This document shows, piece after piece, positions 3,011 to 7,418 of a stretch of 27,842 nucleotides of DNA (the first letter of the stretch is position 1; the number at the start of each line of letters is the position of its first letter). The position numbers and the translations under genes were made by a program. This DNA comes from a virus, in IMG/VR virus record IMGVR_UViG_3300025872_000246, positions 1-27,842 of that record; one strand, written 5' to 3'. Under the pieces are notes generated by a model. The model was not told the DNA's origin. It saw only the letters and a list, made by a program, of their open reading frames with translations, and made no database searches.

Positions 3011-3270
3011 CTTACTCTAACCTCTCCAAGATTCGTCCTAAACTTCGCACACAAGGTAACATCACTGGCAACTTTGGTCGCCCAAAATCTAAAGCGGGTT
3101 CGCCTCTTAATGAACTTGGAATGACTGCTGCTGATGTAGTCAAATGCCCCACACAAGATGAGTATTTGAATCGTTTGTATTATGCGTTTGACAATACCAC
3201 AGACGACAAACTCAAAAAGTTCATTTATCAGGAGATTCGTAAGATACACATTCAGCGTGGAAGTTGGTAG
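3007..3270 (+). CDS. Small basic hypothetical protein, 87 aa
   Basis: ATGA overlap with the previous gene. The N-terminus is basic and Gly/Pro rich (SNLSKIRPKLRTQGNITGNF, GRPKSKAG) and probably unstructured or nucleic-acid binding. The C-terminal half looks helical and acidic (PTQDEYLNRLYYAFDNTTDD, KLKKFIYQEIRKIHIQRG). It is the last gene of the chain begun at 2064; repeat copy 3 starts 2 nt after its stop. Function unknown. Confidence 0.82.
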   Translation: MTYSNLSKIRPKLRTQGNITGNFGRPKSKAGSPLNELGMTAADVVKCPTQDEYLNRLYYAFDNTTDDKLKKFIYQEIRKIHIQRGSW

Positions 3271-3272
3271 GT

Positions 3273-3312
3273 ATTAAAGTTACGATCGTCCAAAGTGTAC
3301 CTATGGTATGAG
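3273..3312 (+). promoter_or_regulatory. 40-bp promoter/start repeat, copy 3
   Basis: This copy has G at offset 33 (TATGGT in place of TATAGT) and is otherwise consensus. Its ATG at 3308-3310 starts the next gene. There is no other Met until codon 25 of that gene, so the embedded ATG is very likely the true start. Confidence 0.75.
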
Positions 3313-3547
3313 CAACCCTAACATCGTTTCCGAAATCTACTCCTACCACACGAATTGGAAGGAAGGTAAAGTCAATCAAATGTGGATTGAGCAAATCACT
3401 GATAAAGAGTGTGACAATCTCTACGTTGCTGTTGCACACAATCCCCGCAATGGTTCTACAATGGAGATGAGCAATCCCCGCACATCTTATCACGAAACTC
3501 TAAACTGGGTTCGTGGTTTCTGTGGCACTTTCTGTATTCTCAACTGA
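3308..3547 (+). CDS. Hypothetical protein, 79 aa
   Basis: The start is embedded in repeat copy 3. The product begins MSNPNIVSEIYSYHTNWKEG. Its middle looks like a beta-sheet (NQMWIEQITDKECDNLYVAV, AHNPRNGSTMEM), and it ends in an aromatic/Cys-rich segment (WVRGFCGTFCILN). The C-terminal F-C-x-x-x-C could be a disulfide or metal pair. Its stop shares a base with the next start at 3547, opening a coupled chain to 4036. Confidence 0.82.
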   Translation: MSNPNIVSEIYSYHTNWKEGKVNQMWIEQITDKECDNLYVAVAHNPRNGSTMEMSNPRTSYHETLNWVRGFCGTFCILN

Positions 3548-4062: not shown

Positions 4063-4281
4063 ATGACTCTTACTTCCGAACAACTGAACGATCTCATCGA
4101 ACGCTATTGTGATCGCGTTGTTGATGAAATGGACACGAAATCCATGGAACAAATGCTCTATGAACTGTTGGTCGATTCTTTTCAACAATCCAATGAGAAT
4201 GATATGGAAGAACTTATCACTTCCATCTATGATGAGGAGTATTATCAGGAACTGGTTGAAAGTGTAACACAAGACTCTTAA
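4063..4281 (+). CDS. Small helical acidic protein, 72 aa, paralogous to the 6136 gene
   Basis: I chose ATG 4063; an in-frame GTG at 4033 would add 10 residues and overlap the upstream gene. The chosen start matches the paralog at 6136-6312: both run L-I-x-x-Y-x-D-R near the start, then M-x-T-K, and end with EELIT...YY.EL.E. The product is acidic and predicted mostly helical (MTLTSEQLNDLIERYCDRVV at the start). Repeat copy 4 follows 9 nt after the stop. Function unknown. Confidence 0.78.
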   Translation: MTLTSEQLNDLIERYCDRVVDEMDTKSMEQMLYELLVDSFQQSNENDMEELITSIYDEEYYQELVESVTQDS

Positions 4282-4290
4282 TTCTTTTGA

Positions 4291-4330
4291 ATTAAAGTTA
4301 CGATCGTCCAAAGTGTACCTATGGTATGAG
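4291..4330 (+). promoter_or_regulatory. 40-bp promoter/start repeat, copy 4
   Basis: Identical to copy 3 across all 40 bases (TATGGT variant). Its ATG at 4326-4328 starts the next gene, which has no other Met until its very C-terminus. This copy is therefore strong evidence that the embedded ATG is used. Confidence 0.75.
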
Positions 4331-4502
4331 CAACACTAACTACAACGCAAATCCTTACAAACAGCAGATCCTCGATAAGGGTCGTGATCTGCCCAAATCT
4401 TCTGCTTCAAAGCGTACCTTTCCTCTGACGATTGGACTCCGAACCTATCACACTGAGGAACAATATCAGGAAGCACTTGCTAATTTCATGAACGGTTATT
4501 GA
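4326..4502 (+). CDS. Small basic hypothetical protein, 58 aa
   Basis: The start is in repeat copy 4 and the stop is TGA 4500-4502. The product begins MSNTNYNANPYKQQILDKGR, has a basic Ser-rich middle (LPKSSASKRTFPL), and a C-terminal helix (EEQYQEALANFMNGY). It is probably soluble. It heads a five-gene coupled chain (4326-5145) in which every stop overlaps the next start. Function unknown. Confidence 0.75.
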   Translation: MSNTNYNANPYKQQILDKGRDLPKSSASKRTFPLTIGLRTYHTEEQYQEALANFMNGY

Positions 4503-4933: not shown

Positions 4934-5145
4934 CATTATCTAACAAGACCACGCGAAAGTTAGGCATTGCTCTGACAGATGAGGTGATTCAATATATCTA
5001 CCAAGATGAGCGTTGGATTGATTTTATGCACGAAATCATTCCTGATGCGATACAAGAAAAGATAGGTAACATTGACTCTGATTTGTTATTTGAATTGTCA
5101 TTGATTGTGATGGATAATATACATCTAAAATCGTATGATAGTTGA
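4930..5145 (+). CDS. Hypothetical protein, 71 aa
   Basis: ATGA overlap. The product starts MTLSNKTTRKLGIALTDEVI and continues with aromatic/acidic helices (YIYQDERWIDFMHEIIPDAI, LLFELSLIVMDNIHLK). It is probably an all-helical soluble protein. It ends the coupled chain from copy 4; repeat copy 5 begins 2 nt downstream of the stop start. No family recognised. Confidence 0.8.
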   Translation: MTLSNKTTRKLGIALTDEVIQYIYQDERWIDFMHEIIPDAIQEKIGNIDSDLLFELSLIVMDNIHLKSYDS

Positions 5146-5146
5146 G

Positions 5147-5186
5147 ATTAAAGTTACGATCGTCTAAAGTGTACCTATGGTATGAA
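5147..5186 (+). promoter_or_regulatory. 40-bp promoter/start repeat, copy 5
   Basis: Differs from consensus with T at offset 19, G at 33 and A in place of the final G. Its ATG at 5182-5184 starts the next gene. The invariant left 18 bases are intact. Confidence 0.75.
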
Positions 5187-5472
5187 CATCAACGATCTCC
5201 TCGATTCCATCAAACTCACTGAGGAACTTGCGATGGAAAACTATCAACAACGCAATGGTGTTGTTGATTACCGTTTGGACGGTATTTGCAACCACTACTT
5301 TCCTCTTTATGTTGAGGGCAATCCTTCATACAAAAACGGCGAAGTTTGCCTGACTTGTAAAGTTTCCAAGACTGTAAAAGGTCAATTCCGCTATACTTTC
5401 CAAGTGAATGGTAAGCGTATTGCAGAGAAGCGAATTGCCTCTGAGTTTCTCTCTCTGGGTGCATTTCGCTGA
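5182..5472 (+). CDS. Hypothetical protein, 96 aa
   Basis: The start is embedded in repeat copy 5. A helical N-terminus (MNINDLLDSIKLTEELAMEN) is followed by a beta-rich basic domain with GICNHYFPLYVEG, EVCLTCKVSKTVKGQFRYTF and VNGKRIAEKRIASEF. Three cysteines are present, two of them in C-L-T-C, which is suggestive of a metal site but unsupported by a second C-x-x-C. It is a single-gene cassette between copies 5 and 6. Function unknown. Confidence 0.82.
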   Translation: MNINDLLDSIKLTEELAMENYQQRNGVVDYRLDGICNHYFPLYVEGNPSYKNGEVCLTCKVSKTVKGQFRYTFQVNGKRIAEKRIASEFLSLGAFR

Positions 5473-5474
5473 GA

Positions 5475-5514
5475 ATTAAAGTTACGATCGTCCAAACTGT
5501 ACCTATAGTATGAG
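5475..5514 (+). promoter_or_regulatory. 40-bp promoter/start repeat, copy 6
   Basis: Carries C at offset 23, a variant shared with copies 7 and 8. ATG at 5510-5512 starts the next gene, which also has Met at codons 6 and 9. Confidence 0.75.
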
Positions 5515-5722
5515 CACTTCCCAAATGTCCCAAATGCCTAAAGTCTACGCTGTGATCGGTGGAATTGATTATGAAGGCGAAAACTTCAAATCTCTCCGCT
5601 TGTTTGATTGTTTCTCTGCTGCCACTGCTTATATGAAATGGTTGGAGGAAGTTGATGGTTTCGATTATGCGATCATGGAAACCCGTGAGGTTAATCTGGA
5701 ATCTGCAATCGCAATGAATTAA
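5510..5722 (+). CDS. Hypothetical protein, 70 aa
   Basis: The start is in repeat copy 6; codons 6 and 9 are alternative Met starts. The core looks like beta-alpha-beta: KVYAVIGGIDYEGENFKSLR, then LFDCFSAATAYMKWLEEVDG, then DYAIMETREVNLESAIAMN. Small phage proteins with this VIGG.DYEG...A..Y...L pattern are common and uncharacterised. The stop TAA 5720-5722 lies in repeat copy 7, so the two elements abut exactly. Confidence 0.82.
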   Translation: MSTSQMSQMPKVYAVIGGIDYEGENFKSLRLFDCFSAATAYMKWLEEVDGFDYAIMETREVNLESAIAMN

Positions 5723-5757
5723 AGTTACGATCGTCCAAACTGTACCTGTAGTATCAC
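5718..5757 (+). promoter_or_regulatory. 40-bp promoter/start repeat, copy 7 (start codon lost)
   Basis: This is the only copy without an embedded ATG: offsets 36-38 read ATC, and offset 31 is G, giving TGTAGT. The next gene starts at a separate ATG 16 nt beyond the repeat (5774). It shows that the left part of the element can be kept while the start codon moves. Confidence 0.7.
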
Positions 5758-5773
5758 CACTTCACTTCCTACC

Positions 5774-6784: not shown

Positions 6785-6812
6785 AAAGACCCTATGTAAA
6801 GGGTCTTTTTTT
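6785..6812 (+). terminator. Rho-independent terminator closing the small-gene field
   Basis: AAAGACCC (6785-6792) pairs with GGGTCTTT (6801-6808) over 8 bp with an 8-nt loop, and the run of eight T at 6805-6812 overlaps the stem end. It follows the last gene of the region by 8 nt and precedes the non-coding origin-like stretch. Confidence 0.88.
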
Positions 6813-6837: not shown

Positions 6838-6875
6838 AAAAAGGTATTAAAAACGATTAAAAATGTATTAAAAAA
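6838..6875 (+). other. Four A-tracts in helical phase, candidate unwinding/bending element
   Basis: A-runs of 5, 5, 5 and 6 begin at 6838, 6849, 6859 and 6870, so the spacings are 11, 10 and 11 bp. Each run is preceded by TT. This phasing with the helix should bend DNA, and the very low GC should make it easy to melt. It lies directly beside the three iterons at 6899-6961. Confidence 0.6.
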
Positions 6876-6898
6876 TATAGTTGTCTTTTTAACATGCC

Positions 6899-6961
6899 TG
6901 TGGAAAAGTATGTTAAATGTGTGGAAAAAGGTGTTATCTCTGTGGAAAAAGTGTGTGAATA
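6899..6961 (-). repeat. Three 21-bp iterons with DnaA-box-like cores, candidate replication origin
   Basis: TGTGGAAAA occurs at 6899-6907, 6920-6928 and 6941-6949, exactly 21 bp apart. The minus-strand reading is TTTTCCACA, which is the form of the DnaA box I know for cyanobacteria (E. coli TTATCCACA). The spacer sequences differ, but the boxes stay in phase on one DNA face (two helical turns). With the phased A-tracts next to them, this is the classical arrangement of an origin. The surrounding stretch 6777-7154 contains no supportable gene. Confidence 0.55.
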
Positions 6962-6996
6962 CCTTATAAATGTGCTGGGTGTTTGTGATCTAAGCG

Positions 6997-7026
6997 AGCA
7001 TAACATAAGGACCGCACTTCTGTCAA
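6997..7026 (-). promoter_or_regulatory. Possible leftward promoter facing the iterons
   Basis: On the minus strand TTGACA (7026-7021) is followed after 18 nt by TATGCT (7002-6997). No minus-strand gene lies to the left, so if active it would produce an RNA running into the iterons and A-tracts. The -10 match is only 4 of 6. Confidence 0.3.
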
Positions 7027-7078
7027 CTCCGGGGTCACAAAATCCTCACAATCCCCGTGCCACAATATAAACCGTCCA

Positions 7079-7097: not shown

Positions 7098-7126
7098 TTG
7101 ACAAGTTCTCCCAGGCATCTTAGAGT
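7098..7126 (+). promoter_or_regulatory. Sigma70-type promoter for the 7155 gene
   Basis: A perfect -35 TTGACA (7098-7103), a 17-nt spacer and the -10-like TAGAGT (7121-7126) lie 28 nt before the ATG at 7155. The next gene has a clear GGAG ribosome site at 7144-7147. This is the best host-type promoter in the left half. Confidence 0.6.
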
Positions 7127-7154: not shown

Positions 7155-7328
7155 ATGTCAGTTGCATTTCAACAAGCGCAGAAGCAGCGTTATAGGATCA
7201 CTCTGGATCTATCAGTGTTCGGTGACTTCGACCCACATCAGATTGATTGGGAGAAGTTATTCAAGTTGGAACCTGCAGAGAAGTGTGATGCTTACGTTGA
7301 GGACCTAAGTACACCTGACCGTTGGTAA
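7155..7328 (+). CDS. Conserved small cyanophage protein, 57 aa
   Basis: I chose ATG 7155 because GGAG lies 7 nt upstream and a promoter precedes it; an in-frame TTG at 7098 is the -35 box itself. The product begins MSVAFQQAQKQRYRITLDLS, then VFGDFDPHQIDWEKLFKLEP and an acidic end YVEDLSTPDRW. The RYRITLDLSVFGDFDPHQI segment resembles a small conserved cyanophage protein without assigned role. It lies between the origin-like region and repeat copy 8. Confidence 0.8.
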   Translation: MSVAFQQAQKQRYRITLDLSVFGDFDPHQIDWEKLFKLEPAEKCDAYVEDLSTPDRW

Positions 7329-7338
7329 TTTGGTTGGT

Positions 7339-7378
7339 ATTAAAGTTACGATCGTCTAAACTGTACCTATAGTATGAG
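7339..7378 (+). promoter_or_regulatory. 40-bp promoter/start repeat, copy 8
   Basis: This copy has T at offset 19 and C at 23. It stands apart from the other seven, on the far side of the origin-like region. Its embedded ATG at 7374 is in frame with, but 45 nt upstream of, the more likely start at 7419. Confidence 0.75.
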
Positions 7379-7418
7379 GGGCAGACAACCCGCCCCGCTA
7401 ACACTCAAGACGTACCAA

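Follow-up and report, generated by a model that had tools for sequence, protein, structure and literature searches.

Where does a T4-like cyanophage begin copying its DNA, and does the initiator protein of its host take part? T4 itself is, to our knowledge, not thought to use host DnaA. The question is raised by a short stretch of the viral record IMGVR_UViG_3300025872_000246, of which all 27,842 nucleotides were analysed; this whole stretch is referred to here as the window. The window covers only part of a T4-like cyanophage genome; gp25, gp6 and other baseplate genes lie at its right side. A reading of the sequence alone had singled out three DnaA-type boxes beside phased A-tracts as a candidate replication origin. 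Comparison with relatives shows them to be part of a larger non-coding element, whose position to the left of gp25-gp6-gp7 is similar throughout the Kyanoviridae and which is probably the site where the virus begins copying its DNA. In the window, the element and its surroundings comprise the following features:

310-372, 2008-2070, 3252-3314, 4270-4332, 5126-5188, 5454-5516, 5697-5759 and 7318-7380: eight copies of a ATTAAAGTTACGATCGTCYAAASTGTACCTATAGTATGAGCA repeat, between small early ORFs
6785-6808, plus strand: intrinsic terminator at the end of the block of small early ORFs; on the minus strand, too, the stem has a terminator-like score
6785-6990, minus strand: predicted short non-coding leftward RNA of about 200 nt, a candidate primer or R-loop RNA
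6838-6875: four phased A-tracts (6838-6842, 6849-6853, 6859-6863 and 6870-6875), with starts 11, 10 and 11 bp apart
6899-6907, minus strand: DnaA-type box 1, TTTTCCACA (plus-strand reading TGTGGAAAA)
6920-6928, minus strand: DnaA-type box 2, same sequence and plus-strand reading
6941-6949, minus strand: DnaA-type box 3, same sequence and plus-strand reading
6967-6999, minus strand: near-invariant core TAAATGTGCTGGGTGTTTGTGATCTAAGCGAGC, on the start-site side of the leftward promoter
6997-7026, minus strand: leftward sigma70-type promoter (-35 TTGACA at 7026-7021, 18-bp spacer, TG-extended -10 TATGCT at 7002-6997)
7098-7126, plus strand: divergent rightward sigma70-type promoter, TTGACA-N17-TAGAGT
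7155-7328, plus strand: small ORF to the right of the element, conserved and encoding an acidic protein (MSVAFQQAQKQRYRITL...) kept in several cyanophages

The three boxes, all exact copies of TTTTCCACA, the cyanobacterial DnaA box (PMC4674748), begin at 6899, 6920 and 6941, with an exact spacing of 21 bp. No further exact copy is present in the 27.8 kb window, and the looser pattern TTWTNCACA returns the same three sites only. First-order Markov versions of the window contain 0.68 exact copies on average, so that three boxes on one strand and in register are not a product of chance. The phased array of four A-tracts is also the sole one in the window (one of 60 Markov versions has one), and its AT-rich DNA is a candidate unwinding or bending zone. 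The sequence-only reading had described this layout accurately: the minus-strand boxes were correct base for base, the A-tract positions and spacings match exactly, and the claim that the box occurs nowhere else in the window holds for exact copies and for the looser pattern. It had also rightly placed the stretch after a terminator and between two gene blocks, which in window order are the early small-ORF block, the element and a second block leading to gp25-gp6-gp7. The early block includes an HNH endonuclease gene (853-1353), and the ATTAAAGTTACGATCGTCYAAASTGTACCTATAGTATGAGCA repeats between small early ORFs look like a phage-specific early promoter, in which a ACGATCGT motif would replace the normal -35. 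No initiator gene adjoins the element.

In the window, a 58-codon frame with VEK heptads (6894-7070) spans the boxes, and a coding repeat was considered as the source of the array. Relatives rule this out: their box spacings include 20, 22, 34 and 43 bp, which are not multiples of three, some of their copies are inverted, they lack long frames, and no ORF is consistent in the module across them. The description of the stretch as non-coding therefore stands, the crossing frame finding no coding support in relatives.

DNA and protein searches located the matching gap in the Synechococcus phages Bellamy, SynMITS9220M01 and S-SM2. In S-SM2 the gap contains a pair of perfect boxes at 21-bp spacing. 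Boxes are absent from Bellamy and SynMITS9220M01, which retain the AT-rich A-tract zone together with a strongly conserved core, TAAATGTGCTCAGG..TTGTGATCTWAGCGAGC. This core, of the form TAAATGTGCT...GTGATCTWAGCGAGC, lies right of the boxes and is nearly unchanged across relatives; it occurs once per complete genome in the six genomes where it is recognisable. The position left of gp25-gp6-gp7 is similar in the window, Bellamy, SynMITS9220M01, S-SM2, S-SCSM1, Syn9 and S-PM2. Two classic isolates also carry the boxes: in S-PM2 (element near 19.23-19.36 kb) they read TTTTCCACAacgtTGTGGAAAAagcTGTGGAAAA and are followed by A-tracts, and in Syn9 (52.56-52.70 kb) they form an inverted pair; blastn found no core in these two phages, and their diverged cores were judged by eye in the DNA around the box clusters, unscored by profile. 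Searched for the core pattern, 2.9 million viral contigs yielded 81 stretches with a common order: an AT-rich A-tract zone, a repeat module, sometimes extra copies of TAAATGTGCTSAGACCTTGTGATTT, and then the core. A-tracts and AT-rich DNA of similar kind are present in most relatives. TGTGGAAAA is the commonest module type, and in many cases an inverted partner lies 13-14 bp upstream of it. TTGAGAA, GCATAAA or CTGTGGAGT repeats make up other types, several of which share this inverted-direct arrangement. Left of the core in L089-L161, the repeats TTCTCAATAA..TTATTGAGAA, TTTATGC..GCATAAA, CTGTGGAGT and GATAATTATTGTTATC fill the module slot. In P-TIM68 (KM359505), a weak core has an inverted TTTTCCACA pair (58194-58216) not on its left but on its right, at a distance of about 200 bp.

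The boxes are concentrated at the element in whole genomes as well. S-SM2 (190.8 kb) has three copies of TTTTCCACA, two of them the 21-bp pair, and four matches to TTWTCCACA, whose sole cluster lies at the element. The same holds for the only TTWTCCACA cluster of the complete S-BM3 genome, and four of the five boxes in record AG-345-O18 lie at the element. Boxes spread at chance frequency, the outcome that would have spoken against an origin, are absent from the complete relatives, where the element is the sole cluster or nearly so; the array itself recurs in relatives, conserved and phased.

What might this conserved element produce? Right of the core, a conserved GTCAA is TTGAC(A) read on the minus strand, and a minus-strand promoter resembling TTGACA-N17/18-TAnnnT is found in 59 of 64 elements. 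The plus strand of these elements gives 1/64, and Markov versions give 2.3%. The usual form of the promoter is TTGACA, a 17-bp spacer and TAGACT, TATGCT or TATAAT. Between 6700 and 7200, the window has two sigma70-like matches only, the leftward and the rightward promoter, and a TTGACA...TATAAT resembling the latter is found in S-SM2 and SynMITS9220M01. Transcription from the leftward promoter of the window is expected to start near 6990, inside the core, so that the invariant GTGATCT would be the first DNA transcribed. The core has no conserved RNA fold (0 pairs in 49 sequences) and the window has no Rfam match, which rules out a structured RNA family for the core. Since the module also lacks a consistent ORF, the likely product is a short non-coding RNA that would be read leftward across core, boxes and A-tracts, opposite in direction to the rightward genes. 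It could end at the 6785-6808 stem, given the minus-strand score of that stem.

To quantify the boxes, we used 63 non-redundant loci picked by core or gene and not by boxes, with 15.6 kb of upstream modules; the repeat-type labels took in loci chosen by boxes, and the unbiased figures are those of this set. The modules contain 64 copies of TTWTCCACA against 0.71 expected from Markov sequence, an enrichment of about 90-fold (maximum of 200 draws, five). TGTGGAAAA is the 9-mer duplicated in the most loci (20), the next unrelated 9-mers reaching five. Successive forward boxes are spaced by 21 (8 cases), 42 (5), 12 (4), 22 (2), 34 (2), 20, 43 and 131 bp, and are phased with a period of 10-11 bp (Rayleigh p ~1e-7); TGTGGATAA (TTATCCACA) and TGTGGAGAA occur as phased variants. 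An independent set of contigs, retrieved by triple boxes alone, was tested for promoter and core. An exact TTGACA-N17/18-TAnnnT was present on the predicted side and strand in 18 of 63 and on the mirror side in four, and the core was found in register at E<1e-3 in six of 63. The link of triple boxes with the promoter is real, and many triple-box contigs are other phages. A core beside every triple-box array, suggested by weak profile matches in about 30 of 73 contigs, is too strong a claim in view of the strict test. Many viral contigs without the core bear at least three TTTTCCACA in a row, some of them several arrays (L037, L040, L051, L056); these are other phages with DnaA-box arrays.

The boxes are not a fixed part of the element. 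TTWTCCACA is present in at least one copy in 29 of the 63 loci and absent from the module in 34, so DnaA is not needed by all carriers. When mapped on a tree built from the DNA to the right of the core (59 rows), the presence or absence of DnaA boxes requires at least 14 changes, and two loci with nearly identical right flanks (L111 and L114) carry different modules. A function maintained through these exchanges is consistent with a binding-site cassette, as might be found in an origin or an operator.

Several properties of the element recall T4 oriE, which is located 1.7 kb to the left of gene 6 and is annotated in the minus-strand direction (record AF158101); the window element lies 4.7 kb to the left of gp6. 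oriE has evenly spaced 12-nt iterons, for which no role in oriE is proven, and depends on an early promoter (PMC3016281). Both sites are thus found left of gene 6 amid baseplate genes, with evenly spaced repeats and a host-type early promoter. The oriE primer RNA is complementary to the gene 5 transcript and antisense to the rightward baseplate genes (AF158101 annotation), a likeness that for the predicted cyanophage RNA concerns orientation and place only. The oriE repeats differ in sitting inside gene 5 and in not being DnaA boxes (TTWTCCACA is absent from T4 76-86 kb, which rules out such boxes at oriE), whereas the cyanophage element is intergenic, with a core and an AT-rich zone of its own; no counterpart of repEA or repEB was found for it. 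T4 oriF and oriG share the order of a promoter followed by an AT-rich zone able to hold an R-loop, as predicted for the cyanophage element, but use MotA-dependent middle promoters and lack DnaA boxes.

Strand composition shifts at T4 oriE, oriF and oriG. This feature of R-loop origins is absent from seven complete cyanophage genomes, where the GC skew is nearly uniform, with genes almost all pointing one way, and the missing switch at the element is for that reason not very informative. Other features of R-loop and DnaA-type origins are present, namely a promoter in 59 of 64 elements with an RNA predicted to head into the AT-rich zone, several boxes in helical register that correspond to the host DnaA box, and AT-rich DNA adjoining them. 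Iteron plasmids and phages that use host DnaA, such as P1 with its oriR, likewise combine helical-register repeats, DnaA boxes and AT-rich DNA; the cyanophage element differs from this type in having no linked Rep gene and in that the DnaA boxes themselves are the repeats. From the relation to gp6/gp7 shared with oriE, the leftward early-type promoter, the repeats and the AT-rich zone, we propose, with moderate confidence, that the element is an R-loop/iteron-type replication origin of T4-like cyanophages (Kyanoviridae), most similar to T4 oriE. A host-type sigma70 promoter would fire leftward early in infection, and its RNA would traverse the core, then the box array and finally the A-tract zone, and could prime leading-strand synthesis. 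A protein bound to the box module may help to open the AT-rich DNA or to hold the RNA-DNA hybrid. For the DnaA-box types (window, S-SM2, S-PM2, Syn9) this protein would most likely be host DnaA, and for other types another protein. The DnaA-type origin suggested earlier survives in part: the comparative data place DnaA-type boxes in an origin-like element, no skew switch accompanies them, and the core, the leftward promoter and the differing repeats in about half of the relatives had been missed.

If the element is not an origin, it could be a regulatory hub, with divergent early promoters and an operator array on which host DnaA, or in other module types a phage or host regulator, controls a leftward regulatory RNA or the neighbouring genes. 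The two promoters are 70 bp apart, DnaA doubles as a transcription factor, and the exchange of repeat modules resembles operator swaps. Leftward genes lie just left of the element in S-BM3 and S-8S55, where it could serve as a plain promoter driving them. In most genomes, however, the path of the predicted RNA is free of genes, the array lies downstream of the start and beside an AT-rich zone, and each genome has a single core; we consider the hub unlikely.

The identity of the boxes bears on whether host DnaA is involved at all. A dnaN start could be located in about 28 Cyanobiaceae genomes. Upstream of this gene, TTTTCCAC/GTGGAAAA is the 8-mer found in the most loci (21), exact TTTTCCACA is found there in many low-GC genomes, and some genomes have an inverted box pair about 22 bp apart. 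In L321 and L323, some 270-310 bp upstream of dnaN, inverted TTTTCC[AC]C..GTGGAAAAC copies are about 22 bp apart; the inverted pair of the host family resembles those of phages, e.g. Syn9 and S-BM3 (24 bp). The element is thus like the cyanobacterial chromosomal oriC in its TTTTCCAC(A) boxes, which in oriC frequently form inverted pairs spaced by about 22 bp, and unlike it in having no dnaN or dnaA beside it, other neighbours and a core with a leftward promoter. The boxes might instead bind a phage-encoded or other protein, their match to the host box being convergent or accidental, as could be suspected because other phages have unrelated repeats, among them TTGAGAA and GCATAAA, in this layout. 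This is improbable: the exact 9/9 match is the single commonest module, S-PM2 and Syn9 included, the variant TTATCCACA is another accepted DnaA box, and host oriC bears the same motif, inverted pairs too.

Least probable is a decoy like E. coli datA, a DnaA-box cluster, that titrates free host DnaA and shuts off initiation on the host chromosome: the boxes are of high-affinity type and phage copy number climbs during infection, but there are only two or three of them inside a promoter element that is kept when unrelated repeats replace them, and titration leaves the conserved promoter and core unexplained. With other repeats in about half of the relatives, titration, also raised by the sequence-only reading, does not fit as a general function.

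Returning to the origin reading, module swapping allows a more specific version that we put forward tentatively: a swappable origin cassette, in which a constant leftward primer-promoter is joined to an exchangeable module that recruits host DnaA in about half of the lineages.

We found no earlier report of the element in the freely readable full-text literature on cyanophages with DnaA or origins. Cyanomyoviruses are abundant ocean viruses, and according to one review (PMC2984593) the single theta origin predicted for Syn9 is the only replication origin reported for them. With its promoter, predicted start site and host DnaA boxes, this precise and conserved candidate allows the origin question to be tested directly in S-PM2 and Syn9. 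If the origin reading is true, replication of these phages would be tied to a host initiator that T4 is not thought to use. The swappable cassette, if true, would be a DnaA-assisted T4-type origin that changes its initiator by the swap of a small module.
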